From positions 496,001 to 560,000 of the forward strand of contig NZ_CP134876.1 in assembly GCF_032108445.1 (NCBI RefSeq): a DNA stretch of 64,000 nucleotides. The letters are read 5' to 3'. The notes under the pieces were generated by a model. The model saw only the letters and a program-made list of their open reading frames with translations, searched no databases and was not told where the DNA came from. The stretch's first letter is position 1. Each line of letters starts with the position of its first letter. A program made the translations under genes and the position numbers. Source of the stretch: Micromonospora halotolerans (GTDB lineage: Bacteria; Actinomycetota; Actinomycetes; Mycobacteriales; Micromonosporaceae). This document shows, piece by piece, positions 1,697 to 17,024 of the stretch.

Positions 1697-2592
1697 CACG
1701 CCTCCTTCGTCCCGGGCCGGGTCAGCGGCAGCCGCGGGTCCACCGGTTGGCCGACCCAGCTGCCCCGGATCCAGCCGTGCCGGGGATCGTCCACACAGGC
1801 CATGGTCCGGGCGGCGCCGGGTCCGGCCAGCACGTTCAGGTAGTAGAGGTCGTAGCCCGGGGCGGCCATCGACGGCCCGTGGTAGCCGTAGGGGACGAGC
1901 ACCACGTCGCCGGTGCGCACCTCGGCCAGCACGTCGATGGGCCGGTCGGCGGTGCCGTAGACCCGCTGGTAGCCCACCGGCCCCTCGCCGGGCGCACCGC
2001 CGGCCACCTCGAAGTAGTAGACCTCCTCCAGCGCGGCCTCGACCCGCCCGTCGTCGTACGCCCGCTCCTGCTCGTGCTTGTGCGGCGGGTACGACGACCA
2101 GTTGCCGCCGGGCGTGAGCACCTCCACGGCGACCAGCCGGTCGCAGTCGAAGGCGTCCGGCGCGCAGAAGTTGTTGACCTGCCGGCTGGCCGGGCCGGCG
2201 CCGCGCAGTTCCACCGGCACGTCGCGGGCCGCGCCGTAGCGGGGCGACAGCCGGCGGGTGGCCCGCGCCGACGGCAGCGCGAAGCGTCCCGCGCCGCGGA
2301 TCGTCACGTCGGCGTCCCGAGGCAGGTAGGCGAAGTCGGTGACCGCGGCGAACACCGACTCGCGCCCGGTCAGCGCGAGCCGTAGCCCGTCGCAGTGCAC
2401 GGTGGCGGCGCCGGCCAGCGGCAGGACCAGCATCTCCTCGTCGCCGGTGGTGAAGCTGACCTCGCCGCCGGCGGGCAGGGTGAGCACCCGCAGCCCGGCG
2501 TAGGTCCAGCCGGCTCGCTCGGGGGTGACCTCCAGCGCCCACGGCGCGCGGGCCGTGCCGCCCCAGGGCAGGTGCGCGTCGGGGGTCCTCAC
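1696..2592 (-). CDS. iolB: IolB, 5-deoxy-glucuronate isomerase
   Basis: Cupin isomerase that turns 5-deoxy-D-glucuronate into 2-deoxy-5-keto-gluconate, the step after IolD. The product is 298 residues, the normal IolB length. Two cupin halves are visible. The second has the family signature 'SSYPPHKHEQ' with its metal histidines, then 'EEVYYFE' and 'VPYGYHGPSMAAPGY'. The GTG start is chosen because it overlaps the stop of the upstream aldolase (GTGA) and gives the usual N-terminus; a longer frame reaching 2943 only runs through the aldolase gene. The stop overlaps the iolD start. Confidence 0.93.
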   Translation of the reverse strand: MRTPDAHLPWGGTARAPWALEVTPERAGWTYAGLRVLTLPAGGEVSFTTGDEEMLVLPLAGAATVHCDGLRLALTGRESVFAAVTDFAYLPRDADVTIRGAGRFALPSARATRRLSPRYGAARDVPVELRGAGPASRQVNNFCAPDAFDCDRLVAVEVLTPGGNWSSYPPHKHEQERAYDDGRVEAALEEVYYFEVAGGAPGEGPVGYQRVYGTADRPIDVLAEVRTGDVVLVPYGYHGPSMAAPGYDLYYLNVLAGPGAARTMACVDDPRHGWIRGSWVGQPVDPRLPLTRPGTKEA

Positions 2593-3476
2593 GCGTCCTG
2601 CCCGGTGGGCAGCAGCGACCCGGCCAGGTCCACGGCGGCGGCCACGTCGTCGGCGGGCGGGTAGAGCAGCGCCCGGCCGACCACCAGGCCGCGCACGCCG
2701 GGCAGCCGCAACGCCCGCGCCCACCGGGCGTACACGACGTCCGGCGCCTCCACCGGGTCGCCGCCGAGGAGCAGGACCGGCAGCGTGGTCGCGGCCATCA
2801 CCCGCTCCATCTCGTCGACGGCCGGCAGCTTCAACCAGGTGTACGCGCTGGTCGCGCCGAGCGCCTGCCCGACGCTGACACCCTTGATGACCGCCTCCGG
2901 GCGCAGGTCGGCGCTGACCCGGCCGCCGTCGCGGGCCACCCACAGCGGTTCGACGAGCGCCACGGTGCGGTGCGCGGCGAGGGCGGTGACCGCCTGGGCG
3001 CAGGCCTGGAGGGTGGAGGCGGTGGCCGGGTCGTCCGGGTCGATCCGGCAGAGCATCTTGCCGCCGTCGTAGCGCATCGCGGCGATGCTGTCGGCGTCGT
3101 AGGCGGTGAACCGGTCGTCGAGTTCGAAGGTGGCGCCGGAGAGGCCGCCGCGGTTCATCGAGCCGATGGCCAGGCGGTTCTCCAGCGCCCCGAGCAGCAG
3201 CAGGTCCTCCAGGATGTCCGGGGTGCCGAGCACGCCGTCGACGCCGGGCCGGGACAGCGCCACGCGCAACCGGTCGAGCAGGTCCACCCGCCCGGCCATG
3301 GCCATCGGCCGATCGCGTACGCCGAGGGCGCCGCGGGCCGGGTGGTCGGCGGCGATGATGAACAGCGGCCGGCCGGGTTCGGGCCAGGGCCGGCGGGTAC
3401 GGCGGGCGGCGGCTTCGGCGATCGCCTGCGGCCGGTGCGCGCGGGTGCGGGTCAGCGCGTCGTACTCGGTGCTCAC
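2589..3476 (-). CDS. class I aldolase-like (beta/alpha)8 protein, candidate IolJ replacement
   Basis: A 295-residue TIM-barrel protein between iolC and iolB. It resembles the DeoC/LacD-like aldolases that databases group with corynebacterial Cgl0158. Visible segments are 'LFIIAADHPARGALG' near the N-terminus, 'VDGVLGTPDILEDLL', 'VALVEPLW' and 'ATSAYTWLKLP', the last holding a Lys in the position of a Schiff-base lysine. By position it is the best candidate for cleaving 2-deoxy-5-keto-gluconate-6-phosphate, the IolC product, because no classical fructose-bisphosphate-aldolase-type IolJ is seen. GTG start overlaps the iolC stop (GTGA). The substrate is inferred from context, not shown by the sequence. 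Confidence 0.75.
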   Translation of the reverse strand: MSTEYDALTRTRAHRPQAIAEAAARRTRRPWPEPGRPLFIIAADHPARGALGVRDRPMAMAGRVDLLDRLRVALSRPGVDGVLGTPDILEDLLLLGALENRLAIGSMNRGGLSGATFELDDRFTAYDADSIAAMRYDGGKMLCRIDPDDPATASTLQACAQAVTALAAHRTVALVEPLWVARDGGRVSADLRPEAVIKGVSVGQALGATSAYTWLKLPAVDEMERVMAATTLPVLLLGGDPVEAPDVVYARWARALRLPGVRGLVVGRALLYPPADDVAAAVDLAGSLLPTGQDA

Positions 3477-4456
3477 CGGTCTTCTCCTGTCAGGGCGGCG
3501 GTCGACGGCGCCGGACGCGGTGTGGCGTCCCCGGCCAGCGCCGCCGTCTCGGCGTAGTCGGGCATGGCGGCGGAGCAGGCCAGTCGGGAGGCGACGATCG
3601 CGCCGGCGGCGTTGGCGAAGCGCATGGTCCGCTCCAGCGGCCAGCCGCGCAGCAGCCCCAGGCAGAGCGCGCCGCCGAAGGCGTCGCCGGCGCCCAGCCC
3701 GTTGACCACGTCCACCGGCACCGGCGGCACCCGTACGCTCTGCTCGGCGGTGCGGGCCAGCACGCCCTCCGGGCCGAGCTTGACCACGGCGAGCCGGGGC
3801 CCGCGTTCGAGCAGCAGCGCGGCGGCCCGGTCCGGGTCGCGGGTGCCGACCGCGATCTCCACCTCGTCGAGGTTGCCGACGGCGACGGTGACCCGGGGCA
3901 GCGCCTCGGCGACGGCCGCGGTCGCGGCCGCCGGGTCGGGCCAGAACATCGGCCGGTAGTCGAGGTCCAGCACGGTGTGCGGGCGACCGGCGCGGGCGGC
4001 GAGCGCGGCGGTGTGCGCGTCCCGGCTGGGCTGCTGGCACAGGCCGGTGCCGGTGAGCCAGAAGACGCGGGCCGAGGTGACGGCGTCGAGGTCCAGCTCC
4101 TCGGGCCGGATCTGGAGGTCGGGGGCCGTGGGCGTGCGGTAGAACCACAGCGGGAAGTGGTCCGGCGGGAAGATCTCGCAGAAGGTGATCGGGGTGGGCA
4201 GCCCGTCGACCGGGCGGACCTGGCTGTCGTCCACACCGAACTCGCGCAGCGCCCGGTGCACGTAGCCGGCGAAGGCGTCGGCGCCGGTGCGGGTGATCAA
4301 CCCGGCGCGCAGGCCCTGCCGGCTGGCCGCGACCGCCACGTTGGTGGGGCTGCCGCCGAGGAACCTGCCGAACGTCTCGACCTCGGCCAGCGGCGTGGCG
4401 ACCTGCAACGGATAGATGTCCACCCCGACCCGGCCGATGGTGAGCACATCGAGCAT
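3473..4456 (-). CDS. iolC: IolC, 5-dehydro-2-deoxygluconokinase
   Basis: PfkB/ribokinase-family sugar kinase, 327 residues, phosphorylating 2-deoxy-5-keto-gluconate. The first PfkB signature lies in 'GRFLGGSPTNVAVAASR' near residue 30 and the second in 'NGLGAGDAFGGAL' near residue 250, where the Asp of GAGD is the catalytic base. ATG 4456 is preferred over the longer frame (to 4609), since it has a GGAGG ribosome site eight bases upstream and gives the normal family N-terminus, MLDVLTIGRVGVDIYP. First gene of the leftward iol operon; the promoter lies in the divergent gap before the GntR gene. Confidence 0.93.
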   Translation of the reverse strand: MLDVLTIGRVGVDIYPLQVATPLAEVETFGRFLGGSPTNVAVAASRQGLRAGLITRTGADAFAGYVHRALREFGVDDSQVRPVDGLPTPITFCEIFPPDHFPLWFYRTPTAPDLQIRPEELDLDAVTSARVFWLTGTGLCQQPSRDAHTAALAARAGRPHTVLDLDYRPMFWPDPAAATAAVAEALPRVTVAVGNLDEVEIAVGTRDPDRAAALLLERGPRLAVVKLGPEGVLARTAEQSVRVPPVPVDVVNGLGAGDAFGGALCLGLLRGWPLERTMRFANAAGAIVASRLACSAAMPDYAETAALAGDATPRPAPSTAALTGEDR

Positions 4457-4514: not shown

Positions 4515-4559
4515 TTGGTAACAGTGCCTACGAGTTGTGTCAATGTGTTGTCATGACAA
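4515..4559 (-). promoter_or_regulatory. iol operon promoter with IolR-type operator
   Basis: Read on the minus strand, TTGACA (4543-4538), a 17-base spacer and TACCAA (4520-4515) form a plausible sigma-70-type promoter for iolC. A perfect 12-bp palindrome, TTGTCATGACAA (4548-4559), lies just upstream of the -35. Its core TGTCATGACA satisfies the IolR motif KGWCHTRACA reported for Corynebacterium glutamicum (recalled, not looked up). The same core occurs before the ABC operon at 5432. The promoter call is by eye. Confidence 0.65.
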
Positions 4560-4643: not shown

Positions 4644-5381
4644 GTGACCGGCCCCGAGATCGCGGTCGACCGCAGCAGCCCGGTCCCGCTCTACTTCCAG
4701 GTCGCGCAGCAGTTCGCCGCGGCGATCCAGCGCGGTGAGCTGGCCCCGGGTGACCGCCTGGACAGCGAGTTGCAGCTGGCCGACCGGCTGGGCCTGTCCC
4801 GGCCCACCGTGCGGCAGGCCATCCAGCACCTGGTCGACAAGGGACTGATCGTCCGCCGGCGGGGCGTGGGCACCCAGGTGGTGCGGGGCGAGGTCCGCCG
4901 GGCCGTCGAGCTGACCAGCCTGCACGACGACCTGGTCCGCGCCGGCCAACGGCCGTCCACCTCGGTGCTGGAGCTGGCCACCGTGGCCTGCCCGCCGGCG
5001 GTCGCCGCCGCCCTCGGCGTGCCACCCGGCGGCGAGGTGCAGCACCTGCGCCGGCTGCGGTTCTCCGACGGGGAACCGCTCGCGCTCATGGAGAACTGGC
5101 TGCCGGTCGACCAGCCGCGGCTCACCATGGCGGCCCTGCAGGCCGACGGCCTCTACGCGATCCTGCGTGCCGGCGGGCGGCGGATCCGCGGCGCCCAGCA
5201 GCGGATCGGGGCGCGGGCCGCCACGGCCGCCGAGGCACAGATGCTGGGCGAGCGGCGTGGCGCGCCCGTGCTCACCATGACCCGCACCGCGTACGACGAC
5301 CAGGGCCGCTACGTCGAGCACGGCGCCCACATCTACCGCGCCAGCCGCTACTCCCTCGAGGTGACCGTCGCCGAGCGGTGA
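4644..5381 (+). CDS. GntR/HutC-family regulator, IolR-like
   Basis: A 245-residue transcription factor. The N-terminal winged helix (about 10-75) has the GntR pattern 'VPLYFQVAQQFAAAIQRG', 'LPDSE'-type 'LDSELQLADRLGLSRPTVR' and 'RRRGVGTQV'. The C-terminal UTRA effector domain (about 90-240) marks the HutC subfamily, whose ligands are often sugars or sugar phosphates. GTG 4644 is chosen because GAGGAGG precedes it by eight bases; the frame remains open to 4593. It lies divergent from iolC and just before the ABC operon, and both promoters carry the same palindrome, so it probably represses both and responds to an inositol-pathway metabolite. The effector is inferred. Confidence 0.85.
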   Translation: MTGPEIAVDRSSPVPLYFQVAQQFAAAIQRGELAPGDRLDSELQLADRLGLSRPTVRQAIQHLVDKGLIVRRRGVGTQVVRGEVRRAVELTSLHDDLVRAGQRPSTSVLELATVACPPAVAAALGVPPGGEVQHLRRLRFSDGEPLALMENWLPVDQPRLTMAALQADGLYAILRAGGRRIRGAQQRIGARAATAAEAQMLGERRGAPVLTMTRTAYDDQGRYVEHGAHIYRASRYSLEVTVAER

Positions 5382-5431: not shown

Positions 5432-5441
5432 TGTCATGACA
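5432..5441. promoter_or_regulatory. second IolR-type operator, ABC operon
   Basis: Perfect palindrome TGTCATGACA, about 95 bases before the lipoprotein start codon. It is identical to the core found in front of iolC and is the main sign that the two operons share one regulator. Confidence 0.6.
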
Positions 5442-5535: not shown

Positions 5536-6933
5536 ATGTCAGCCAAGCCGAGACGCGCCGCCGGCGTGCTCGCCGCCTTCACCGCCGTCGCCCTCGCCGC
5601 CACGGCCTGCGGCGGCTCGGACGAGCCCGCCGGTAAGGACGCCAAGAACATCACCCTCACCATCTCCGCCAATTCCATCGTCGGCGGCAAGAACTCCGCC
5701 GGCGCGGAGTGGATCGAGAAGTGGGTCATCCCCAAGTTCGTCGAGGCGCAGAAGGCCAAGGGCGTCACCGCCAAGGTGACGTTCGTGCCCAGTGGCGTCG
5801 ACGACGAGCAGTACAAGACCAAGCTGGCCCTGGACCTGCGCTCCAAGGGCGGCGCCGACGTGATCGCCGTGGACGGCATCTGGGTCGGCGAGTTCGTCCA
5901 GGCCGGCTACCTCAAGCCGCTGTCCGAGGTGGCCGGTGACCAGGTCGAATCCTGGGAGGGCTGGTCCCAGATCCCGGAGACCGTGCAGGGCCTCGGCTCG
6001 TTCGAGAACAAGCGCTACGCCATCCCGCTCGGCACCGACGGCCGGGTCCTCTACTACAACAAGAAGCTCTTCGCCCGGGCCGGCCTGCCCGCCGACTGGC
6101 AGCCGAAGAGCTGGCAGGAGATCCTCGACGCCGGCGCCAAGCTCAAGGCGCTGCCCGGGGTGACGCCGATCCAGATCAACGCCGGCACCGCGATGGGCGA
6201 GGCCACCTCCATGCAGGGCGCACTGCCGCTCCTGGTCGGCGCGGGCGGCGAGATCTACAAGGACGGCAAGTGGTCCGGCGCCACCCAGCCGGTCAAGGAC
6301 ATGCTCGACTTCTACGGCAAGGTCTACGGCGGCGGCCTGGGCGACCCGAAGCTCCAGCAGGAGGCCAAGGGCCGCGACAAGTCGTTCGCCGAGTTCGCCG
6401 CCGGCAAGATCGGCATCCTCGCCGAGGGCGACTACTTCTGGCGCAGCGTCGTCAACCCGAAAACCGGCATCGCCAAGATGGCCGACCGGGACACCACCGT
6501 CGGCTACGCGATGATCCCGGCCAAGCAGCCCGGCGCCGGCATCCGGGGCCAGGACTTCGTCAGCATGTCCGGTGGCGGTGTGCGGACGCTCAACCCCAAC
6601 TCGAAGTTCCCCTCGCAGGCGTGGGAGCTGCTGTCGTTCATGCACTCGGCCGAGGCGGTCAAGGCCGAACTCGCCGGCGAGGCCCGCATCACCGCGCGGC
6701 AGGACGTCAACAAGGAGGTCCTCGCGGGCGACCCGATGCTGAGCTTCGTGACCGAGAAGGTGCTGCCGGTGACCGCGTACCGGCCGCCGCTGGCGGTGTA
6801 CCCGCAGGTGTCGGTGGCGCTGCAGGAGGCCACCGCCGCCGCCACGGCCGGCAAGAGCGCCGACGAGGCGGCCGCCGAGTACCAGAAGAAGGTCGAAGGG
6901 TTCGTCGGTGGTCCAGGTAACGTCACCTCCTGA
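5536..6933 (+). CDS. sugar ABC transporter substrate-binding lipoprotein
   Basis: A 465-residue solute-binding protein of the CUT1 (family 1) type. The N-terminus is basic, then hydrophobic, ending at a lipobox-like AATAC with Cys25 as the likely lipidated residue, so the mature protein is anchored outside the membrane. The body has the usual two-lobe SBP features, such as 'IPLGTDGRVLYYNKKLF', 'PKSWQEILDAGAKLK' and 'FAAGKIGILAEGDYFW'. ATG 5536 follows a GAAGGGAAA ribosome site. It opens the rightward operon and overlaps the first permease by 26 bases. The ligand cannot be read from sequence; context suggests an inositol-containing or alpha-mannosyl sugar. Confidence 0.93.
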   Translation: MSAKPRRAAGVLAAFTAVALAATACGGSDEPAGKDAKNITLTISANSIVGGKNSAGAEWIEKWVIPKFVEAQKAKGVTAKVTFVPSGVDDEQYKTKLALDLRSKGGADVIAVDGIWVGEFVQAGYLKPLSEVAGDQVESWEGWSQIPETVQGLGSFENKRYAIPLGTDGRVLYYNKKLFARAGLPADWQPKSWQEILDAGAKLKALPGVTPIQINAGTAMGEATSMQGALPLLVGAGGEIYKDGKWSGATQPVKDMLDFYGKVYGGGLGDPKLQQEAKGRDKSFAEFAAGKIGILAEGDYFWRSVVNPKTGIAKMADRDTTVGYAMIPAKQPGAGIRGQDFVSMSGGGVRTLNPNSKFPSQAWELLSFMHSAEAVKAELAGEARITARQDVNKEVLAGDPMLSFVTEKVLPVTAYRPPLAVYPQVSVALQEATAAATAGKSADEAAAEYQKKVEGFVGGPGNVTS

Positions 6934-7855
6934 CGAGGTGGTCGAGGGAGTGCGCCCGGTCACGGGCGCCTCCCCGGCCCCCGACGCCGCCGGGCTCGGC
7001 CGGGCCCGGGCCACCGGGTTCCTCGTCCCGGCCATGGTGCTCATCCTGGTCTTCCTCGTGGTGCCAGCCGCCTGGACGATCTACCTGGGCGTGACCAACT
7101 ACCGGCTCACCGGCCTGGCCGCCGCCCACCCCGAGGTCGTCGGCCTGGACAACTACACCCAGGCCCTCGGTGACGAGCGGTTCCGCACCTCCCTGCTGCT
7201 GACCCTGCAGTTCGTCCTCGGCTCGGCGGTGATCGGCCAGGCCGGTCTCGGCTTCGCCATCGCGTTCGCGCTGCGCGACCGCCGCGGCCCGCTGCGCCGG
7301 GTGGTCGAAGGGTTCGTGCTGCTCTCCTGGATCCTGCCCAGCTCGGTGGTCGCCTTCCTCTGGATCGCCCTGCTCGACCGGGACGCCGGCACGCTCAACG
7401 CGCTGCTCGGCATCCCCGGGACGGCCTGGCTGCTGGACCACCCGATGCTGTCGATCATCGTTTTCAACACCTGGCGCGGCACCGCCTTCTCGATGATGCT
7501 CTACGCCGCCGCGCTGGAGAACGTCCCCCGCTCGCACCTGGAGACCGCCCGGCTGGCCGGCGCCTCGACCTGGCAGCAGCTGCGCGACGTGGTCTTCCCC
7601 CGCATCCGCGGGCACGTGCTGACCAACCTGCTGCTGATCAGCCTCTGGACGTTCAACGACTTCGCGCCGTTCCTGATCACCGCCGGCGGGCCCGAGCAGC
7701 GCTCGGAGATCCTGCCGGTCTACGTCTACAAGGTGGCGCTCTCCGGCGGCGAACTCGGCTTCGGCGCGGCCATCTCGTTCATCATGCTGCTGATCAACCT
7801 GGTCATCGCGCTGGTCTACCTGCGGATGCTGGGCCGGCGGAAGGAGGCGGCGTGA
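6908..7855 (+). CDS. sugar ABC permease (MalF type)
   Basis: Inner-membrane permease with about six membrane segments and the EAA loop 'LETARLAGASTWQQLRDVVFPRI', the ATPase docking site, near residue 215. Length up to 315 residues. The annotated GTG at 6908 overlaps the lipoprotein gene; in-frame GTGs at 6938 and 6950 are equally possible because no ribosome site decides between them and the first ~30 residues are unstructured. It is coupled to the next permease by a GTGA overlap. Confidence 0.92.
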   Translation: MVQVTSPPDEVVEGVRPVTGASPAPDAAGLGRARATGFLVPAMVLILVFLVVPAAWTIYLGVTNYRLTGLAAAHPEVVGLDNYTQALGDERFRTSLLLTLQFVLGSAVIGQAGLGFAIAFALRDRRGPLRRVVEGFVLLSWILPSSVVAFLWIALLDRDAGTLNALLGIPGTAWLLDHPMLSIIVFNTWRGTAFSMMLYAAALENVPRSHLETARLAGASTWQQLRDVVFPRIRGHVLTNLLLISLWTFNDFAPFLITAGGPEQRSEILPVYVYKVALSGGELGFGAAISFIMLLINLVIALVYLRMLGRRKEAA

Positions 7856-8724
7856 CCACCGACACGGCGACCGCGCCCACCACCGAGTCGACCCGGCCCA
7901 CGGTCGCGGTACGCCACCTGCTCGCCCAGATCGGCCGCTACACGTTCCTCTGCGCCGTGCTGGGCTTCTTCGCGCTGCCGCTGCTGTGGCTGGCCACCGC
8001 CCCGTTCGACGACACCCCGACCGTCACCGCCTCGCTGCCGCGGTTCACCCTGGACAACTTCCGCGCCCTGCTGGACAACCCGTACGCGCTGAGCTCGCTG
8101 CTCAACTCGGTCTACCTGGCCGCCGGCACGGCGGCGCTGGTGGTGACCTTCGCGGCCCTCGCCGCGTACGCGCTGAGCCGGGTCCGGGTGCCCGGCCGCG
8201 ACGCCCTGCTCTACGGCCTGCTGCTGCTGTCCTCGATCGTCACCGGCACCGCCACCATGGTGCCGCTGTTCGAGCTGGCCTTCCGGCTCAACCTGATCGA
8301 CTCCCGGCTCGGCGTCATCCTGATCCTCAGCGGCGGGCTGCTGCCCGCGGCCATCTTCATCCTCAAGGACTTCATGGACTCCACCCCGACGTCCTACGAG
8401 GAGTCGGCCCGGGTCTTCGGCGCCAGCCCGTTGCAGATCATGCGGCACATCGTGGTGCCGCTGGTCCGTCCCGGCCTGGCCACCGTCGGTGTGTGGGCGG
8501 TGGCCAACGTCTGGGGCAACTTCCTGGTGCCGTTCCTGCTGCTGCGCGGGCCGGACAAGGCCCCCGCCGCGGTGATCATGTACACCCTCTACACCGAGGG
8601 CGGGCAGGCCGACCTGCGGCTGCTCTCCACCTTCTCGCTGCTCTACTCGCTGCCGGTGGCGCTCATGTTCGTCTTCGTCAGCAGCCGATACGGGTTCCGC
8701 TTCCACGGAGGGATCAAGCGCTGA
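7852..8724 (+). CDS. sugar ABC permease (MalG type)
   Basis: A 290-residue partner permease with six predicted membrane helices and the EAA loop 'YEESARVFGASPLQIMRHIVVPL' near residue 180. GTG start overlaps the previous stop (GTGA), and its own stop overlaps the next ATG (TGATG), so the two permeases and the ATPase are made together. As in MalG-type proteins the C-terminus ends in a basic tail, 'RYGFRFHGGIKR'. Confidence 0.93.
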   Translation: MTTDTATAPTTESTRPTVAVRHLLAQIGRYTFLCAVLGFFALPLLWLATAPFDDTPTVTASLPRFTLDNFRALLDNPYALSSLLNSVYLAAGTAALVVTFAALAAYALSRVRVPGRDALLYGLLLLSSIVTGTATMVPLFELAFRLNLIDSRLGVILILSGGLLPAAIFILKDFMDSTPTSYEESARVFGASPLQIMRHIVVPLVRPGLATVGVWAVANVWGNFLVPFLLLRGPDKAPAAVIMYTLYTEGGQADLRLLSTFSLLYSLPVALMFVFVSSRYGFRFHGGIKR

Positions 8725-9881
8725 TGTCCGCCATCACCATGCGCGAGCTGACCAAGGTCTACCCCGGTGGGGTACGTGCCCTGGACGCCCTCGACCTGGA
8801 GATCGCCGACGGGGAGTTCTTCGCCCTGCTCGGCCCGTCCGGCTGCGGCAAGACCACCCTGCTGCGCACGATCGCCGGCCTGGAGGTCGCCTCCGGCGGC
8901 AGCGTGCGGATCGGCGAGCGGGACGTCACCAACCTGCCGCCGGGCAAGCGCGACGTGGCCATGGTCTTCCAGGACTACGCGCTGTTCCCGCACATGACCG
9001 TGCGGGACAACATCGCCTACCCGCTGCGGATCAAGAAGGTCGACCGGCGCAGCCGCGGCAGCAAGGCCGCCGACACGGCCGACGAGCTCGGCCTGTCCGG
9101 GCTGCTGGAACGCCGCCCCGGGCAGCTCTCCGGCGGCCAGCAGCAGCGCGTCGCCCTGGCCCGGGCGATGGCCTGCCACCCGCAGGTGTTCCTGCTCGAC
9201 GAGCCGCTGTCCAACCTCGACGCCCGGCTGCGGCTGGAGGCCCGGACCTTCCTCAAGCGCCTCCAGCGGGAGCTGGGCGTCACCACCGTCTTCGTCACCC
9301 ACGACCAGGCCGAGGCACTGGCCCTGGCCGACCGGATCGCGGTGATGGAGGGCGGCCGGATCCGCCAGGTCGGCACCCCCACCGAGGTGTTCCGCCGCCC
9401 CGCCAACACCTTCGTCGCCGGCTTCATCGGCTCCACCCCCATGAATCTGATCGACGCGCGGGTGCGGGGCGACGAGCTGGCCGTGGCCCGCGCCCGGCTA
9501 CCGCTGCCCGACGACGCCCGCGACCGGGTCGCCGACGGCGAGCGGCTGGTCTACGGCATCCGCCCCGAATACCTCGACTACTCCCCCACCGCGGTCCCCG
9601 GCGCGCTGACCGGCGAGGTCGTCGTCGTGGAGAACCTCGGCAGCGTCTCCCTGGTCTCGCTGGACGTGCCCACCGACGACGCCGAGGCGGGCGACGCGGC
9701 CGGCGACCCGGGCCGGACCAGCGTGCAGGTCGTGGTGCCCGAGGGCGGCGAACCGGAACCGGGCGACACCGGCTGGGCCGTGCCCCGCCCCGGCCGGTCA
9801 CTGCTCTACCGGGACGGCAACCTGGTCACCGCCGCCGCCGGTGTGCCCGCCCCCCGGGCCGACGCGGCCGTCCGGAGCTGA
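8724..9881 (+). CDS. sugar ABC transporter ATPase (MsiK/UgpC type)
   Basis: A 385-residue ATP-binding subunit. Walker A 'GPSGCGKTT' lies near residue 37, the ABC signature 'LSGGQQQRVALARA' near 135, Walker B 'VFLLDEPLSNLDA' near 155, and the switch His in 'VTHDQAEA' near 190. A C-terminal TOBE/MalK-like regulatory domain follows. Many actinobacterial CUT1 systems lack an ATPase and share MsiK; this one has its own, and its linker region around 'DDAEAGDAAGDPGRTS' is unusual. ATG overlaps the preceding TGA. Confidence 0.93.
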   Translation: MSAITMRELTKVYPGGVRALDALDLEIADGEFFALLGPSGCGKTTLLRTIAGLEVASGGSVRIGERDVTNLPPGKRDVAMVFQDYALFPHMTVRDNIAYPLRIKKVDRRSRGSKAADTADELGLSGLLERRPGQLSGGQQQRVALARAMACHPQVFLLDEPLSNLDARLRLEARTFLKRLQRELGVTTVFVTHDQAEALALADRIAVMEGGRIRQVGTPTEVFRRPANTFVAGFIGSTPMNLIDARVRGDELAVARARLPLPDDARDRVADGERLVYGIRPEYLDYSPTAVPGALTGEVVVVENLGSVSLVSLDVPTDDAEAGDAAGDPGRTSVQVVVPEGGEPEPGDTGWAVPRPGRSLLYRDGNLVTAAAGVPAPRADAAVRS

Positions 9882-9883
9882 CC

Positions 9884-11092
9884 GTGGTCGTGCACCGCGG
9901 CAGGTGGACCCTGCAGGACCGGGCCGACGACGTGCTGCGCGCCCTGCCGGTCACCGTCGCACCCGGCACCGCCGCGCTCACCGTCCGGCTGGACTATCCC
10001 CGCGAGGCCGGGGTGCTCGACCTGGGCTGCGTCGGTCCGGACGGCTTCCGCGGCTGGTCCGGCGGCGCCCGCGACGGCTACACCGTGGCCGCCGACTGGG
10101 CCACCCCCGGCTACCTGCCGGGCGAGCTGGAACCCGGCGAGTGGCAGGTGCTGCTGCGGTTGCACCGCATCCCACCGGACGGGCTGGACTACGAGGTCAC
10201 CGCCACCACCACCAGCACGCCGCCGCCGGCGCCGCCCGCACCGGCGGCGCCACCGCGCCCCGACCGCCCGCCCCGCCGCGACCTGCCCACCGTCGACGGC
10301 CGGCGGTGGCTCGCCGGTGACCTGCACGCGCACACCGTGCACAGCGACGGCAGCCAGACCATCGACGAGCTGGCCGCGCTGGCCGCCGCCCGCGGCCTGG
10401 ACTTCCTCGCCGTCACCGACCACAACACCGTCAGCCACCACCCGTGGCTGCCGGACGCCTCCGCCCGCTACGGCATCAGCCTGCTGCCCGGCCAGGAGGT
10501 GACCACCGACCGGGGGCACGCCAACGTGTTCGGGCCGGTGGGCTGGATCGACTTCCGCCGCCCGCCGGACGAGTGGCTCGCCGCCGCCCGGCGCGGCGGC
10601 GGGCTCATGTCGGTCAACCACCCCCTGGGCGGCGACTGCGCCTGGCGCCAACCCCTGGCCGACCGCACCCAGCTGGTCGAGGTGTGGCACTCCGGCTGGT
10701 GGGACCGCACCTGGGGCGCCCCCCTCGCCTGGGCGCGGGCCTGGCGGCCGGACGTCGTGGCGGTGGGCGGCAGCGACTTCCACCGCCCGGGCGACGACGC
10801 GCCGCCCGGCTCCCCCACCACCTGGGTGCTCGCCGACCCCGACCGCGCACCCGGCGACGCCGTGCTGGACGCGCTGCGCGGCGGCCGTACCGCCGTCTCC
10901 GCCGACCCAGGCGGGCCGCTGCTGCTGCGCCTCGGCGACGAGCTGCTGGCGCTCGACGCCGACGGCGCGCTGCTGGCCGACCCGGACGGCCGGCACCGGG
11001 TGGTCCGCGGCGACCGGTGCCTGCTGCCGGCCGGCGACGGGCTGCACGTCCTGGAGTCCCACCGCATGGAGGTGATCGCACTGTGCAGCTGA
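9884..11092 (+). CDS. CehA/McbA-type PHP-domain metallohydrolase
   Basis: A 402-residue protein with an N-terminal beta-rich region (1-110), a Pro/Ala linker, and a PHP metallohydrolase domain. Metal ligands are visible in 'GDLHAHTVHSDG' (HAH at 148-150), 'AVTDHNT', 'LLPGQEVTT', 'SVNHPLGGD' and the final 'GGSDFHRPG'. Members of this family hydrolyse phosphoesters or carbamates, so it may act on a phosphorylated sugar brought in by the transporter; the substrate is not known. GTG lies two bases after the ATPase stop. The end overlaps the next gene by ten bases and contains its ribosome site GGAGGTGA. Confidence 0.85.
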   Translation: MVVHRGRWTLQDRADDVLRALPVTVAPGTAALTVRLDYPREAGVLDLGCVGPDGFRGWSGGARDGYTVAADWATPGYLPGELEPGEWQVLLRLHRIPPDGLDYEVTATTTSTPPPAPPAPAAPPRPDRPPRRDLPTVDGRRWLAGDLHAHTVHSDGSQTIDELAALAAARGLDFLAVTDHNTVSHHPWLPDASARYGISLLPGQEVTTDRGHANVFGPVGWIDFRRPPDEWLAAARRGGGLMSVNHPLGGDCAWRQPLADRTQLVEVWHSGWWDRTWGAPLAWARAWRPDVVAVGGSDFHRPGDDAPPGSPTTWVLADPDRAPGDAVLDALRGGRTAVSADPGGPLLLRLGDELLALDADGALLADPDGRHRVVRGDRCLLPAGDGLHVLESHRMEVIALCS

Positions 11093-11994
11093 CCGCACGC
11101 ACGCGGGTGGCCGGCGCCCCCGTCAACTACGGCATCTACCAGCCCACCGGCGCACCCGTCGACCCCGAGGACCTGCTCGCGGCACTGGCCCGCGACGGCT
11201 ACACCGGGGTGGACTCCGGCCCGATCGGCTACCTCGGCACCGGCGAGACCCTGGCGCGCCGGCTGACCGCGGCCGGCATCGGGCTGGCCGGCGGCTGGGT
11301 CGACCTGCGGTTCGCCGACCCGGCCGGCTTCGCCGAGGACCTGACCCAGCTCGACGCCGCGCTCGACGTGTTCACCGCCGCGCCGGTCGACGACCCCCGG
11401 TTCGCGCCCCGGCCGACCCTGGCCTGCCCCGGCAACCCGGGCCGGATGGCCCGGCCGGGCGTCCCGACCGACCTGGCGTCGGCGCTGCCCGCCGCGGCCT
11501 GGCCCGACTTCGCCGCCCGGGTGCAGCAGGCCGCCGACCGGTGCCGCGACCGTGGCCTGGAGCCGGTGTTCCACTACCACCTCGGCACCGACGTGGAGAC
11601 CGAGGCGGAGGCCGACCGACTGCTCGAACTGACCGACATCGCCATCTGCCTGGACACCGGGCACCTGGCGCTGGCCGGGGGCGACCCGGTGGCCGCCGCG
11701 CGCCGCTGGGCCGGCCGGATCGGCCAGGTGCACCTGAAGGACGCCGACCTCGCCGCCCACGCCCGGGCCCGGGCGGCCGGCGGGGGCCTCATGGACGTGG
11801 TCGCGGCCGGCGGGTTCTGCGCCCTGGGCCGCGGCGACGTCGACCTCGCCGGGGTGTTCGCGGCGCTCGACGACACCGGCTACACGGGCTGGCTGGTGGT
11901 CGAGCAGGACGCCCCCGAGGACGGCCGGGACCTCGACCGGATCCGCGCCGACCAGCACGCCAACCGGCGGTGGCTCGAGGAGGCGCTGCGATGA
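11083..11994 (+). CDS. sugar isomerase/epimerase TIM barrel, IolE-like
   Basis: A 303-residue xylose-isomerase-like TIM barrel. Metal-site segments typical of IolE and related enzymes are 'EPVFHYHLGTDVET', 'ICLDTGHLALAGGDPV', 'IGQVHLKDA' and 'FCALGRGDVDLAGV', ending with 'GWLVVEQD'. IolE proteins dehydrate inososes; others in the fold epimerise sugars. GTG 11083 is chosen for the GGAGGTGA ribosome site eight bases upstream inside the previous gene. It is coupled to the next gene by a four-base ATGA overlap. With the Gfo/Idh gene beside it, an inositol-type oxidation and dehydration pair is plausible. Confidence 0.82.
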   Translation: MQLTARTRVAGAPVNYGIYQPTGAPVDPEDLLAALARDGYTGVDSGPIGYLGTGETLARRLTAAGIGLAGGWVDLRFADPAGFAEDLTQLDAALDVFTAAPVDDPRFAPRPTLACPGNPGRMARPGVPTDLASALPAAAWPDFAARVQQAADRCRDRGLEPVFHYHLGTDVETEAEADRLLELTDIAICLDTGHLALAGGDPVAAARRWAGRIGQVHLKDADLAAHARARAAGGGLMDVVAAGGFCALGRGDVDLAGVFAALDDTGYTGWLVVEQDAPEDGRDLDRIRADQHANRRWLEEALR

Positions 11995-13136
11995 CCGAGC
12001 CCGGCAAGCGGATCCGGATCGCGGTGGCCGGGCTGGGCGTCATCGCCCGCACCGTGCACCTGCCGCTGCTGCAACGCCGCGCCGACCTGTTCGAGATCGT
12101 CGCGCTGGCCGACCTGTCCCCGTCCCGGCTGACCGAGCTGGGTGAGCGGTACGGCGTCGAGCCCGCCCGCCGCTACACCGACGCGGCCCGCATGGTCACC
12201 GACGGCGGCTGCGACGCCGTGCTGCTGGCCACCTCCGGCTCGCACGGCGACCTGGCCGCGCTGGCGCTGCGCGCCGGCCTGCCCGTGCTGTGCGAGAAGC
12301 CGCTGGCCTACACCCTGCGCGAGACGGCCCGGCTGGCCGAGCTGGGCGCCGGCAGCCCGGCGCTGATGGTCGGCTACATGAAGCAGTACGACCCGGCGGT
12401 GGCCGAGGCCGCGCGGCTGCTGGCGGACCTCGGCGGCGCGGAGCGGGTGCATGCCGTGGAGGTGACCGTGCTGCACGCCGGCGGCGACCGGCAGCTGCGC
12501 TTCGCCAACCTGCCGCCGGCCGCCGGCGACGTGCCGGCCGAGGAGGTGGCCCGGCTGTCCGCCGCCGACCGGGCGCTGCTCGACACCGCCGTCGGCGCCG
12601 ACCCGGGCGCCCGCGCCCTCTACCAGATCCTGATCAACAGCATCTCGCACGACCTGTCCCTGCTGCGCCTGTTCACCGGGGCGCCGGCCACCGTGGAGCA
12701 GGTCGCCACCTGGCCGCTGCGCCCCGACGGCCCCGTGGAGCCGTCGGTGGAGATCAGCGGGCGGCTGCCGGGCGGGGCACGCTACGGCATCCGGTGGCTC
12801 AACCTGCCGGACTACCCCGCCTACCGGGAGACGGTCACCCTGCACCACGCCCGCGGCTCGCTGGAGCTGGTGTTCCCCTCGCCGTACCTGCTGAACGCGC
12901 CGACCACGCTGACCGTGGTGGACGAGCACGGCGGCGGCGAGCGGCGGGCCGCGTACCGGTCGGTGACCGAGGCGTTCGAGCAGGAACTGGTCGCGTTCCA
13001 CGCGATGGTCACGGCGGGTGCCGCGCCGCTGACCGGCATCGCCGAGGGCGCGGCCGACGTACGGACCAGCCAGCAGGTGGTACGCCGCTACGGGGAGCTG
13101 ACCGGGGCGGCGATCGGCGGAGAGGCGGCGAGCTGA
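11991..13136 (+). CDS. Gfo/Idh/MocA-family oxidoreductase
   Basis: NAD(P)-dependent sugar or inositol dehydrogenase, 381 residues. The Rossmann motif 'VAGLGVIARTVHLPLL' is at 12-27 and the family's catalytic-lysine motif 'CEKPLAY' near residue 100. The C-terminal alpha/beta substrate domain has the His of 'SISHDLSLLRLF'. Its ATG overlaps the stop before it (ATGA) and its own stop overlaps the mannosidase start (TGATG). It may serve as the operon's inositol dehydrogenase (IolG-like), but the family is broad and the substrate is inferred. Confidence 0.88.
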   Translation: MTEPGKRIRIAVAGLGVIARTVHLPLLQRRADLFEIVALADLSPSRLTELGERYGVEPARRYTDAARMVTDGGCDAVLLATSGSHGDLAALALRAGLPVLCEKPLAYTLRETARLAELGAGSPALMVGYMKQYDPAVAEAARLLADLGGAERVHAVEVTVLHAGGDRQLRFANLPPAAGDVPAEEVARLSAADRALLDTAVGADPGARALYQILINSISHDLSLLRLFTGAPATVEQVATWPLRPDGPVEPSVEISGRLPGGARYGIRWLNLPDYPAYRETVTLHHARGSLELVFPSPYLLNAPTTLTVVDEHGGGERRAAYRSVTEAFEQELVAFHAMVTAGAAPLTGIAEGAADVRTSQQVVRRYGELTGAAIGGEAAS

Positions 13137-15883
13137 TGACGCGACCGACCGAGATCATCGTGGTCCCGCACACCCACTGGGACCGGGAGTGGTACGAGCC
13201 GTTCCAGCGGTTCCGGCTGCGGCTGGTGGCGCTGCTGGACGACGTGTTCGACCGGATGGAGCGCGACCCGCGGCAGCGGTTCACGCTCGACGGGCAGCTC
13301 GCCGCGGTCGACGACTACCTGGAGGTGCGCCCCGAGCGGCGGGAGCAGGTGATCGACCTGGTCCGGGCCGGCCGGCTGTCGGTGGGCCCCTGGCAGATCC
13401 TGCTCGACGAGTTCCTCTGCTCCGGGGAGAACATCGTCCGCAACCTGGAACGCGGGCTGGCGCGCAGCGCCGACCTGGGCGGCGCCATGCCGGTCGGCTA
13501 CCTGCCCGACATGTTCGGCCACATCGCCCAGATGCCGCAGATCCTGGCCGGCGCCGGGCTGGCGCACGCCTGCGTGTTCCGGGGTGTGCCCGAGCGGGTG
13601 CACACTCACGCCTTCGCCTGGCAGGCGCCCGACGGCACCACGGTCCGCACCCAGTACCTGCCCGGCGGCTACGGCAGCGCGGCCGGTCTCATGGAGGACG
13701 CCGCGCAGGTCACCCGCCGGGCCGGCGACCTGGCCGACCGGCTCGCCGGGTGGCGCCCGGCCGGCGACGACACCCCGGTGCTGGCCATGTACGGCACCGA
13801 CCACGCGGCGCCGGCGCCGGACGCCCCCGACCTGCTGGCCACCGCCGACGTCGCGGGCACCCGGCTGCGGCTGGGCACCCTCGCCGAGTACTTCGCCACC
13901 CAGCCGGCCACGGTCGACGGCCTGCCCGTGGTGCGCGGCGAGCTGCGCTCGCACGCCCGGGCCAACATCCTGCCCGGCGTGATCTCCGTCCGGGCGCACC
14001 TGAAGCAGGCGATGAACCGCGCCGAGCGGCGCGTCGAACGGTACGCCGAACCGCTCGCCGCGCTCACCCACGACGGGTCCGTGCAGCGCTTCCTCGACAT
14101 GGCCTGGACCCGGCTGATCGACGCGAGCTGCCACGACTCGGTGACCGGCTGCGGCTGCGACGAGACCGCCGAGCAGGTCGCCGCCCGGCTCGCCGAGGCC
14201 GACCAGCTCGGCCGGGCGGTCTGCGACCTGGTCGGCACGCGGCTGTCGACCGCCGTGCCCCGGGACGGCTACCTGCTGTTCAATCCCACTCCGGCGGCGC
14301 GTACCGCGCTGGTGTGCCTGGACGTGGAGACGCCGGCCGACGGCGCCGTGGCGCTCGCCGACGCCGCCGGCCGCCGCGTGGCCACCCAGGTGCTCGACCG
14401 CAACCGCACGCTGCTCGCCGACGACGTCGTGCCGGCGGCCGACCTGCCGGCCGTGCTCACCCGGGTGCACGGTCGGGAGCTGTACGGCCAGGAGGTCACG
14501 GCCTGGTCCGTCTCACCCGACGACGCCACCCTCACCTTCCAGGTGGCCCGCCACGGCGACCCGGCCTTCGACGTGGAGGACGTCCGCCTGGCGCTCGCCG
14601 CCGCCGCGCAGCCCGACCGGTGGCGGGTACGGATCCTCGCCGCTCCCCGGGCCACCGTGGCCGCCCTGGTCGACGTGCCCCCGCTGGGGCGCGCCGCGGT
14701 CCGGCCGGCGCCGCTGCCGGCGACCGCGACGCCCGCGTCCGACCCGGTCACGGTGGCCGGCCGCAGCCTCGACAACGGCCTGCTCCGGGTCGACGTCGCC
14801 GAGGACGGCACCCTGGCGCTGTCCACCCCGGACGGGGTGACCGTGGACGGGGTCGGCCGGATCGTCGACGGCGGCGACGTGGGCGACAGCTACAACTACG
14901 CCCCGCCGGCCGCCGACGAACTGGTCGACAAGCCGCGGGCCGTGCGGACCGTCGTGCGCCACGACGGTCCGCTGGTGGCCGTCCTGGAGGTGGTACGCGA
15001 GTACCGCTGGCCGGTGGCCGCGGACGTCGACGCCGGCTCCCGCGCCGTGGACCGGGAACCCGTCACCGTGACCACCCGGGTCGAGCTGCGGCGCGGCGAG
15101 GGCTTCGTCCGGCTGCGCGTCGAGTTCGACAACCGTTGCGACGACCACCGGGTGCGGCTGCACCTGCCACTGCCGTCACCGGCCGACACCTCGTACGCCG
15201 AGGGCCAGTTCGCCGTCGTGGCGCGCGGCCTGACGGCCGAGGGCGGTGGCGGCGAGGTGCCACTACCCACCTTCCCGGCCAACGGGTTCGTCGCGGCCGG
15301 CGGGCCGGACGGCGCGCTCGCCGTGCTGCTGACCCAACCCACCGAGTACGAGCTGACCGACGCGGGCCGCGAGCTGGCGGTCACCGTGCTGCGGTCGATC
15401 GGGATGCTGTCGCGCAACCGGCACGCGCTGCGCGACGAGCCCGCCGGGCCGCAGCTGCCCACACCTCAGGCGCAGTGCCGGGGCACCCGCACGGTCGAGC
15501 TGGCGGTGCTGCCGTACCGGGGCGCCTGGCACGAGGCGGGGGTGCTGGCGGCGGCCGAGGCGTACCGGCACGAGGTGCTGGCGTTCCCGGGCACCGCCGA
15601 CCCGGCCACCGCGCTGCCCGCGCCGACGGTCGGGCTCTCCGTCGACGGTCCGGGCGTCGCGGTGACCAGCGTCCGGGACCGGGCGGGCCGCACCGAGGTG
15701 CGCCTGGCGGCGCAGACCCCGGTCGACACCACCGCCGTGCTCGGCGGCGCGCCGGTCCGCGGGGCGTGGCGGGCGGACCTGCTCGGCCGGACCGGCGAGC
15801 CGCTCGCCGTCGGCGGGGACGGGCTGGTCCGGTTGCCGCTGCGGGCCTGGGAGATCGCCACGGTGCAGCTCGATCTGACCTGA
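13136..15883 (+). CDS. GH38 alpha-mannosidase
   Basis: A 915-residue zinc-dependent retaining alpha-mannosidase with no signal peptide, so cytoplasmic. The zinc site begins with 'HTHWD' at 12-16. The catalytic nucleophile is Asp125 in 'GYLPDMFGH', and further catalytic-domain residues lie in 'DASCHDSVTGCGCDE' around 335. The middle three-helix region and C-terminal beta domains fill the rest, which is the usual GH38 length. As last gene of the ABC operon it probably removes alpha-linked mannose from the imported sugar. Confidence 0.92.
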   Translation: MTRPTEIIVVPHTHWDREWYEPFQRFRLRLVALLDDVFDRMERDPRQRFTLDGQLAAVDDYLEVRPERREQVIDLVRAGRLSVGPWQILLDEFLCSGENIVRNLERGLARSADLGGAMPVGYLPDMFGHIAQMPQILAGAGLAHACVFRGVPERVHTHAFAWQAPDGTTVRTQYLPGGYGSAAGLMEDAAQVTRRAGDLADRLAGWRPAGDDTPVLAMYGTDHAAPAPDAPDLLATADVAGTRLRLGTLAEYFATQPATVDGLPVVRGELRSHARANILPGVISVRAHLKQAMNRAERRVERYAEPLAALTHDGSVQRFLDMAWTRLIDASCHDSVTGCGCDETAEQVAARLAEADQLGRAVCDLVGTRLSTAVPRDGYLLFNPTPAARTALVCLDVETPADGAVALADAAGRRVATQVLDRNRTLLADDVVPAADLPAVLTRVHGRELYGQEVTAWSVSPDDATLTFQVARHGDPAFDVEDVRLALAAAAQPDRWRVRILAAPRATVAALVDVPPLGRAAVRPAPLPATATPASDPVTVAGRSLDNGLLRVDVAEDGTLALSTPDGVTVDGVGRIVDGGDVGDSYNYAPPAADELVDKPRAVRTVVRHDGPLVAVLEVVREYRWPVAADVDAGSRAVDREPVTVTTRVELRRGEGFVRLRVEFDNRCDDHRVRLHLPLPSPADTSYAEGQFAVVARGLTAEGGGGEVPLPTFPANGFVAAGGPDGALAVLLTQPTEYELTDAGRELAVTVLRSIGMLSRNRHALRDEPAGPQLPTPQAQCRGTRTVELAVLPYRGAWHEAGVLAAAEAYRHEVLAFPGTADPATALPAPTVGLSVDGPGVAVTSVRDRAGRTEVRLAAQTPVDTTAVLGGAPVRGAWRADLLGRTGEPLAVGGDGLVRLPLRAWEIATVQLDLT

Positions 15884-15910: not shown

Positions 15911-16822
15911 TCAGTCTCGGCGCGGCACGGCGTTGTCGACATCGAGCAGTCCGGCGGCGACCACGGCCCGGCTCAGCGGCCGGGTCAGCTCGGCGAGGCG
16001 GGCGCACCCGTCGGCGCCGAGCACCGCGTACGCGGGCGTGGCGAGCCGGTCGGTGGCCGCCTCGATCCACGCGCGCTGCGCCCGTCCGCTGTCGGTCAGC
16101 GCGGGCTCGTCGCCCTCGACCAGCCCGCGCCCGCGCAGCCGGTCGATGGCGTCCGCCCACTGCTCGCCGGTCCAGCCCCGCGTGCGGCGCAGGAAGCGGA
16201 CCGACACCTCGCCGGAGGCGGCGTGCAGCACCAGCGCCTCCAGCCCGGTCAGGCCGGCGAGCACCAGGGCGGCCACGTGCCCGTCGCCACGGAACTCCCG
16301 CAGGAGCGTCTGGGCCTGCCAGAGGATCAGGTGCGGCTGGTCCGGCCAGGGCAGCGCGGCGTGGGCGGCGAACAGCGGCCGCCCCTCGGGGTACGCGGTG
16401 GCGGACTCGGCGGCGCGCCGGGCCAGTTCGGCGGCCTCGACCAGCTCCGGGGACCGCACGGCGTCGTCCAGCGCCCGGGTGAGGGCCGCGTCGGCGGCGT
16501 CCCGCCGGGCGGCCAGCACGGCGGCCGGCGCCGCCCGCTCCCAGGCGGCCGGCAGCACTCGGGCCACGAGGTCCGGGTTGAAGTTGAAGAAGCTGGCCAC
16601 CACCGGGCCGGGCCCGACCGGCCCCAGGGCGGCCGCGCGGGAGGCGAAGTAGCCGGCCGGCGCGGGCAGGCCGAGGGCGGCGTACCGCTCGTGCGCCTCG
16701 GGCACGAAGTAGATCATCGCGTGCAGGGGCTCGGTCACCCGCCAGGCGCGGCGCACGGCGGCCGGGTCGAGGGCCGCCGGCTGCTGCCCGCCCGGATCCG
16801 TCAGCGCTGTCAGGTCCGCCAT
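15911..16822 (-). CDS. SCO6745-like protein
   Basis: A 303-residue actinobacterial protein of the SCO6745 group, of unknown function. An N-terminal helical region ('AWRVTEPLHAMIYFVPEA') is typical of the family, and the C-terminal half contains a winged-helix-like segment, 'GWTGEQWADAIDRLRGRGLVE'. ATG 16822 is preferred to the longer frame (16867) because GGAAGG lies eight bases upstream. Convergent with the mannosidase operon, with only 27 bases between the stops. Confidence 0.8.
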   Translation of the reverse strand: MADLTALTDPGGQQPAALDPAAVRRAWRVTEPLHAMIYFVPEAHERYAALGLPAPAGYFASRAAALGPVGPGPVVASFFNFNPDLVARVLPAAWERAAPAAVLAARRDAADAALTRALDDAVRSPELVEAAELARRAAESATAYPEGRPLFAAHAALPWPDQPHLILWQAQTLLREFRGDGHVAALVLAGLTGLEALVLHAASGEVSVRFLRRTRGWTGEQWADAIDRLRGRGLVEGDEPALTDSGRAQRAWIEAATDRLATPAYAVLGADGCARLAELTRPLSRAVVAAGLLDVDNAVPRRD

Positions 16823-17024
16823 CTCACTGCCTTCCGCCGGGAACGTTACCGACCGGTAGGTTCCCATGCCGGCGGCGGCGTGTCACCCGCCGGGTGCGCA
16901 GGCGGCCCGATGGGGCCTTTTGCTCAGGTCAGCGGCGTGTTCTCATACCGGAACGACGACAACCTGCTGGCGGCCGCGTCCGTCCATCCAGGTCGGTGAC
17001 ACCATCCCGGCGAAAGGTGCAACG

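Follow-up and report, generated by a model that had tools for sequence, protein, structure and literature searches.

An importer–PHP–GH38 operon linked to inositol catabolism in actinobacteria and its probable glycosyl-inositol substrate

What does a sugar importer that is encoded together with an alpha-mannosidase bring to the genes of inositol breakdown? The question arises from a 64,000-nucleotide stretch of the Micromonospora halotolerans genome (contig NZ_CP134876.1, positions 496,001 to 560,000; hereafter the window, with coordinates counted from its first letter), in which a run of eight genes at 5536–15883 encodes an ATP-binding cassette (ABC) importer, a PHP-type metallohydrolase, an IolE-like barrel protein designated here IolE′, a Gfo/Idh/MocA dehydrogenase (Gfo) and a GH38 glycosidase. 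We consider, with a probability of roughly 0.6, that this operon imports and intracellularly degrades a small inositol compound bearing an alpha-linked hexose, most likely mannose. An earlier reading made from the letters of the window had proposed a substrate containing both alpha-mannose and inositol, and this idea emerged strengthened, if short of proof: the link to inositol is well supported by genomic co-occurrence, gene linkage, a common operator and the partial replacement of ordinary IolE by IolE′, and the alpha-mannose half probably holds at the level of the enzyme family, given the GH38 assignment, its retained catalytic residues and the GH63 enzymes that substitute for it.

The operon, the divergent iol genes and their operator

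Pfam and NCBIfam profile searches located every part of the claimed operon at 5536–15883. Since the gaps between the eight genes amount to only −26 to +2 bases, they were regarded as one operon. The two products called earlier an IolE-like barrel and a dehydrogenase differ from the standard IolE and IolG. The features of the operon and of the adjacent divergent unit are as follows.

5536–6933, plus strand: lipoprotein sugar-binding protein (SBP_bac_1, 99 bits)
6908–7855 (start may be 6938), plus strand: ABC permease 1 (BPD_transp_1)
7852–8724, plus strand: ABC permease 2 (BPD_transp_1)
8724–9881, plus strand: ABC ATPase of the MalK/UgpC type (ABC_tran, OB_MalK; UgpC subfamily 387 bits, cut-off 432)
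9884–11092, plus strand: PHP metallohydrolase of the CehA/McbA type with an N-terminal beta domain (141.5 bits, cut-off 80)
11083–11994, plus strand: IolE′, IolE-like barrel (TIGR04379, 138 bits, cut-off 290)
11991–13136, plus strand: Gfo/Idh/MocA dehydrogenase (Gfo/Idh/MocA profile match)
13136–15883, plus strand: predicted cytoplasmic GH38 alpha-mannosidase (Glyco_hydro_38N, 115 bits, cut-off 25)
4644–5381, plus strand: GntR/UTRA repressor gene, candidate IolR-type regulator of both units (Pfam GntR and UTRA)
5432–5441: putative operator TGTCATGACA, before the binding-protein gene
4549–4558: putative operator TGTCATGACA, between iolC and gntR
3473–4456, minus strand: iolC, 5-dehydro-2-deoxygluconokinase (TIGR04382, 370 bits, cut-off 300)
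2589–3476, minus strand: aldolase-like gene of the iol cluster, tentatively named (NF005556, E = 2e-4, below cut-off)
1696–2592, minus strand: iolB, 5-deoxy-glucuronate isomerase (TIGR04378, 299 bits, cut-off 205)
2–1699, continuing past the window start, minus strand: iolD, trihydroxycyclohexanedione hydrolase (TIGR04377, 845.6 bits, cut-off 715; complete gene at G000:C1:495873–497690 of the source genome)

The iolC–aldolase–iolB–iolD unit diverges from the importer operon, running the opposite way from 4456, and the aldolase-like gene likewise sits between iolC and iolB in those iol clusters of relatives that hold all three. No iolG, iolE or iolA was seen by eye in the 16 kb preceding the window. 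The repressor gene belongs to the unit; regulators 54–61% identical to its product adjoin iol genes in the relatives L110, L113, L114 and L117–L119. In Corynebacterium, a GntR-type IolR acts as the repressor of inositol genes (PMC9603128).

As claimed earlier, the importer operon and the iol genes have an operator in common. Exact copies of TGTCATGACA precede both units, and these are two of only four exact sites in the single-contig genome of 6.96 Mb. The other two were set aside: the site at 3721787 is close to what by eye resembles a response-regulator gene, and that at 5857638 overlaps the start of one resembling a short-chain dehydrogenase. A pair of such sites in the window, with one mismatch allowed, is no unusual chance event (15 of 100 shuffles); the weight of the operator comes from site placement and conservation. 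Among family relatives, all 12 for which the complete operon and the DNA before it were available had an exact TGTCATGACA before the binding-protein gene, and with at most one mismatch it preceded the iol genes in 7 of 14 examined family iol loci having iolD. Across another 49 loci (1.0 Mb in total), 26 of the 27 exact TGTCNNGACA sites were no more than 350 bases from the start of a gene for the importer, the iol pathway or a regulator; exact sites preceded 25 of the 55 binding-protein genes whose upstream DNA was available versus 52 of 6050 random windows, one-mismatch matches (12 more of the 55) being left out of the count because they are common by chance. By this operator, the importer operon would belong to the same regulon as the iol genes. 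The motif of IolR is reportedly KGWCHTRACA.

Linkage to inositol catabolism across actinobacteria

In a Micromonosporaceae-level sample, a GH38 protein search gave some match in 42 of 150 genomes. All eight operon genes occurred in 13 genomes including the source (in one, G094, the contig ends within the GH38 gene), and all 13 carry iolD. In a fourteenth, G113 (L048:1391–5466), PHP directly overlaps GH38 and the contig ends within the importer; iolD was not found in a search of this genome, and, among the operon genes in its contig, just IolE′ and Gfo are missing. The iolB gene exceeded its cut-off in all 14, that of G113 being only 33% identical and in a different setting. Within the genus of the source, iolD was found in 4/4 genomes with the operon versus 1/12 without it. 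As a control, 21 family genomes with other GH38 types were searched (two more were left out), and iolB exceeded the cut-off in only four, one of which (G015) has a GH38 fragment of 64% identity.

Beyond the family, 80 named loci were retained from 584 candidates, and 30 of these contain intact PHP and GH38 genes, L192 being left out for its broken frames. In every one of the 30, GH38 is next to PHP or one or two genes further along. Fourteen contain both IolE′ and Gfo, six Gfo alone and ten neither, and iol genes were present in the examined flanks of 9/14 loci with IolE′ versus 0/16 without it. In Microbacterium (L154 and L158) the order IolE′–Gfo–importer–PHP–GH38–iolC–aldolase–iolA–iolB–iolD forms a single run. 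L192, also from Microbacterium, shows the same order together with the iol genes, and its PHP and GH38 frames are broken (8788–12519) by decay or sequencing errors. In Agromyces (L159) the iol genes come next but on the opposite strand, and in Nonomuraea (L132–L134 and L136) they are divergent, as in the source genome. All 30 of the named PHP–GH38 genomes searched, namely those of every intact locus except L126 and that of L192, carry iolD; 29 were over the cut-off and the last was split in two pieces.

The same association was evident in a class-wide sample of 296 genomes, of which 37 encode the binding protein (E ≤ 1e-60) and 132 iolD (E ≤ 1e-150). All 37 genomes with the binding protein carry iolD (36 over the curated cut-off), versus 95 of 259 without it (Fisher p = 4e-15, or 6e-6 counting genera, values that are too small because the genomes are related and independence is overstated). 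In the 16 of these 37 neighbourhoods that were examined, PHP accompanied the importer in every case, GH38 in nine (one 25% identical) and GH63 in two. This linkage across the named loci, along with the co-occurrence of iolD, led us to reject the view that the iol and importer genes are neighbours by accident.

IolE′ and the dehydrogenase

The position of IolE′ was assessed by identity to an IolE from an iol cluster. An argument from the curated cut-off, that the genome is without IolE, was abandoned, since even the IolE genes located within iol clusters of actinobacteria miss it, those of only one of 27 genomes passing. With the L060 cluster IolE as query against 49 genomes, an ordinary-type IolE (at least 48% identity) was found in 6/30 genomes with IolE′ versus 15/19 without IolE′ in the operon DNA examined (p = 6e-5), several of these 19 carrying weaker homologues elsewhere. 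In 8 of 27 genomes searched, including the source, no other IolE homologue than IolE′ scored above 50 bits. The tendency is for IolE′ to take the place of the ordinary type. The tree joined 34 operon rows with that of L251 in a single clade (support 99/99), and one row from L244 was a long branch outside it. The motifs common to IolE are retained in IolE′, and we propose that it is an inosose dehydratase standing in for IolE.

Gfo scored 66 bits against IolG (TIGR04380, cut-off 355) and carries insertions. Inositol dehydrogenases use a Lys-Asp-His catalytic triad, according to PMC9603128. In all nine operon sequences aligned, out of 57 Gfo/IolG rows collected, Lys and His are kept, and Asn or Gly occupies the place of the Asp as located by the D-x-x-x-H spacing. 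The same study mentions two Corynebacterium enzymes without the triad Asp that are inactive on inositols, one of them having further defects. Unlinked Gfo genes of the source genome retain the D-x-x-x-H motif and thus remain candidates for inositol oxidation; either the operon Gfo may act on some other substrate, or inositol may be oxidized by an unlinked enzyme. A second sugar-type ABC region of the source genome (L063, G000:C1:6108001–6128000) contains four Gfo/Idh-like genes and an IolE-like barrel.

The altered triad and the insertions could also mean that Gfo and IolE′ act not on free inositol but on the sugar or the intact glycoside, as in 3-keto-glycoside elimination; the solved relatives of Gfo include aldose-aldose oxidoreductase and DgpA, and IolE′ matches the 2-hydroxy-3-keto-glucal hydratase 8ro4 (E = 1.3e-8). 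However, the solved IolE structures 9zmu (E = 4e-20) and 3cny (E = 2e-18) are much better matches, the best that IolE′ has. Together with the tendency of IolE′ to replace IolE, its occurrence in L251 within an iol cluster without GH38, and the joint absence of IolE′, Gfo and iolD from G113, this makes such an assignment improbable.

The glycosidase, the PHP hydrolase and the probable substrate

The GH38 domain is well over its cut-off, and residues H14, D16, D125, R149, D222 and H333 were invariant in 11 aligned sequences, that of the window included; they match the metal, nucleophile and acid/base residues reported for SpGH38 in PMC2815779. The protein has no hydrophobic N-terminal stretch, and its nearest named relatives among the matches listed, from which very near records may be omitted, are from Asanoa and Micromonospora. 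A second GH38 type, about 49% identical, adjoins a full iol cluster in G018 (L060), and all four family genomes having it carry iolB and iolD. In two small, low-GC actinobacterial genomes with iol genes, a GH63 gene replaces GH38 near PHP and Gfo (L243:17899–19233 and L244:16603–17886). Both genes resemble mannosyl/glucosylglycerate hydrolases, matching a mannosylglycerate-hydrolase-like Pfam family, with glucosylglycerate hydrolase matched only below the cut-off; PMC6608630 lists mannosylglycerate hydrolase as well as glucosidases in GH63. GH38 and GH63 are unrelated families, and their occurrence in the same slot favours an alpha-hexosyl substrate of small size.

These features would also fit an operon that simply takes up manno-oligosaccharides or mannosylglycerate and cleaves them with an alpha-mannosidase, in which case the iol genes would be chance neighbours or share just a regulator. 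The only curated NCBIfam match of GH38 is the mannosylglycerate hydrolase MngB (NF007331, 356 bits), the GH63 substitutes look alike in this respect, and the binding-protein fold is like that of maltose-type binders. Nevertheless, the score is far under the cut-off of 1138, for which plain mannosylglycerate use was rejected, and this explanation leaves unaccounted for the iolD found in all 37 genomes with the binding protein and all 30 named PHP–GH38 genomes searched, the conserved operator and the presence of IolE′ in the operon. The scarcity of iolB in family genomes with other GH38 types likewise disfavours it, and we regard it as quite unlikely.

The AlphaFold model of the binding protein (pLDDT 86.6) resembled maltose/trehalose-type and sulfoquinovosyl-glycerol binding proteins, and the fold comparison singled out no ligand among the matched binders. 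The PHP protein belongs to the CehA/McbA type, having the PHP metal ligands as well as a domain score over the cut-off, and its fold matches PHP phosphoesterases; it would act as a phospho- or ester hydrolase. Such a fold, the weak similarity of the binding protein and ATPase to UgpB/UgpC, and the importer–PHP genes of L242 (G390), which adjoin an iol cluster and lack an adjoining glycosidase, could instead indicate that the importer and PHP primarily handle a phosphodiester of inositol, glycerophosphoinositol for example, as the core substrate, with GH38 or GH63 as an accessory widening the range to glycosylated forms. Against this, GH38 keeps close to PHP in all 30 intact named loci, the similarity to UgpB is common to many other sugar binders, and a phosphodiesterase role of such PHP proteins is an assumption. 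We find it unlikely that the phosphodiester is the core substrate.

Several observations weigh against a glycosyl-inositol substrate, beyond the altered Gfo triad with its inactive Corynebacterium counterparts and the relatedness of the genomes compared. No exact operator lies upstream of the binding-protein genes of Actinomadura and Microbacterium, the latter gene lying inside the operon. Five of the 16 class-wide neighbourhoods have importer and PHP genes without an adjoining glycosidase (one contig ends about 2 kb on), and the importer is absent beside PHP–GH38 in L136, L137, L140 and L145. A paralogous importer–PHP operon copy lies with HAD hydrolase and adenosine-deaminase genes (L250:7955–15615 and L252:2296–10292), which suggests a nucleotide-like substrate there, and thus the importer–PHP family is not restricted to inositol. 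G019 has a PHP–GH38 pair, and neither iolB nor iolD was found in its genome search; with G113, it indicates that the pair can exist without inositol catabolism. The GH63 genes could point to glucose instead of mannose, and a phosphate on the imported substrate is possible as a guess. A comparison of the gene set in other actinomycetes, which the sequence-only reading had called for, tied it to iolD; the idea of a fixed set gave way to a modular one, given the loci without a glycosidase and the two genomes without iolD. In Nonomuraea basaltis (L136:6629–8044), PHP, IolE′, Gfo and GH38 are kept and the importer is gone between iolC and PHP.

On the glycosyl-inositol reading, which we prefer, the predicted route would run as follows. 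The lipoprotein and ABC importer would take up a mannosyl-inositol-type compound; the PHP enzyme would remove a phospho- or ester group, as would suit a head group derived from either phosphatidylinositol mannosides or the mannosyl-inositol-phosphoceramides of fungi, and GH38 would release mannose. An inositol dehydrogenase, either Gfo or an unlinked enzyme, would then yield inosose, to be dehydrated by IolE′, and IolD, IolB, IolC and the aldolase would complete the breakdown. The GntR/UTRA protein would repress both divergent units at TGTCATGACA until released by an intermediate of the inositol pathway.

Compared with the actinobacterial iol pathway under a GntR-type IolR, the locus has in common iolC, iolB, iolD, an aldolase-like gene, the regulator, an IolE-type barrel and the operator. 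It differs in that IolE′ forms a separate clade, the dehydrogenase lacks the Asp of IolG, iolA is not adjacent in the source genome, and the importer, PHP and GH38 are added. The GH38 enzyme is like MngB and SpGH38 in domains, metal site, nucleophile and acid/base, whereas it is far under the MngB family cut-off and its subfamily is tied to inositol genes. The binding lipoprotein, two permeases and dedicated ATPase are those of carbohydrate ABC importers with a MalK/UgpC-type ATPase, from which they are set apart by their pairing with a PHP hydrolase and their linkage to iol genes. The PHP protein shares its domain and conserved ligand set with CehA/McbA metallohydrolases and, in distinction to them, sits in a catabolic operon with GH38.

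The envelopes of actinobacteria and the membranes of fungi are rich in mannose-capped inositol lipids. In an open-licence literature search, judged from its listings, we found no described pathway with exactly this gene set, as the sequence-only reading had stated, and no bacterial route consuming the head groups of such lipids. It is conceivable, though doubtful, that the operon represents an undescribed and widespread actinobacterial pathway for head groups of phosphatidylinositol mannosides or fungal glycosyl-inositol lipids, in which Gfo would oxidize the ring while it is still mannosylated or phosphorylated and IolE′ would act next; if so, Gfo and IolE′ would give the inositol pathway a second point of entry, specific to glycosides. 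The conserved operon and clear operator make the substrate question directly testable, and proposed roles follow for a GH38 subfamily, a type of PHP hydrolase and an IolE clade.

Two further genes of the window were noted in addition. Directly after the GH38 gene, on the opposite strand, lies a gene for a SCO6745-family helix-turn-helix protein (15911–16867), and the protein encoded at 19592–21142 weakly matched the C-terminal region of an exoglucanase as well as chitinase/endoglycosidase models.

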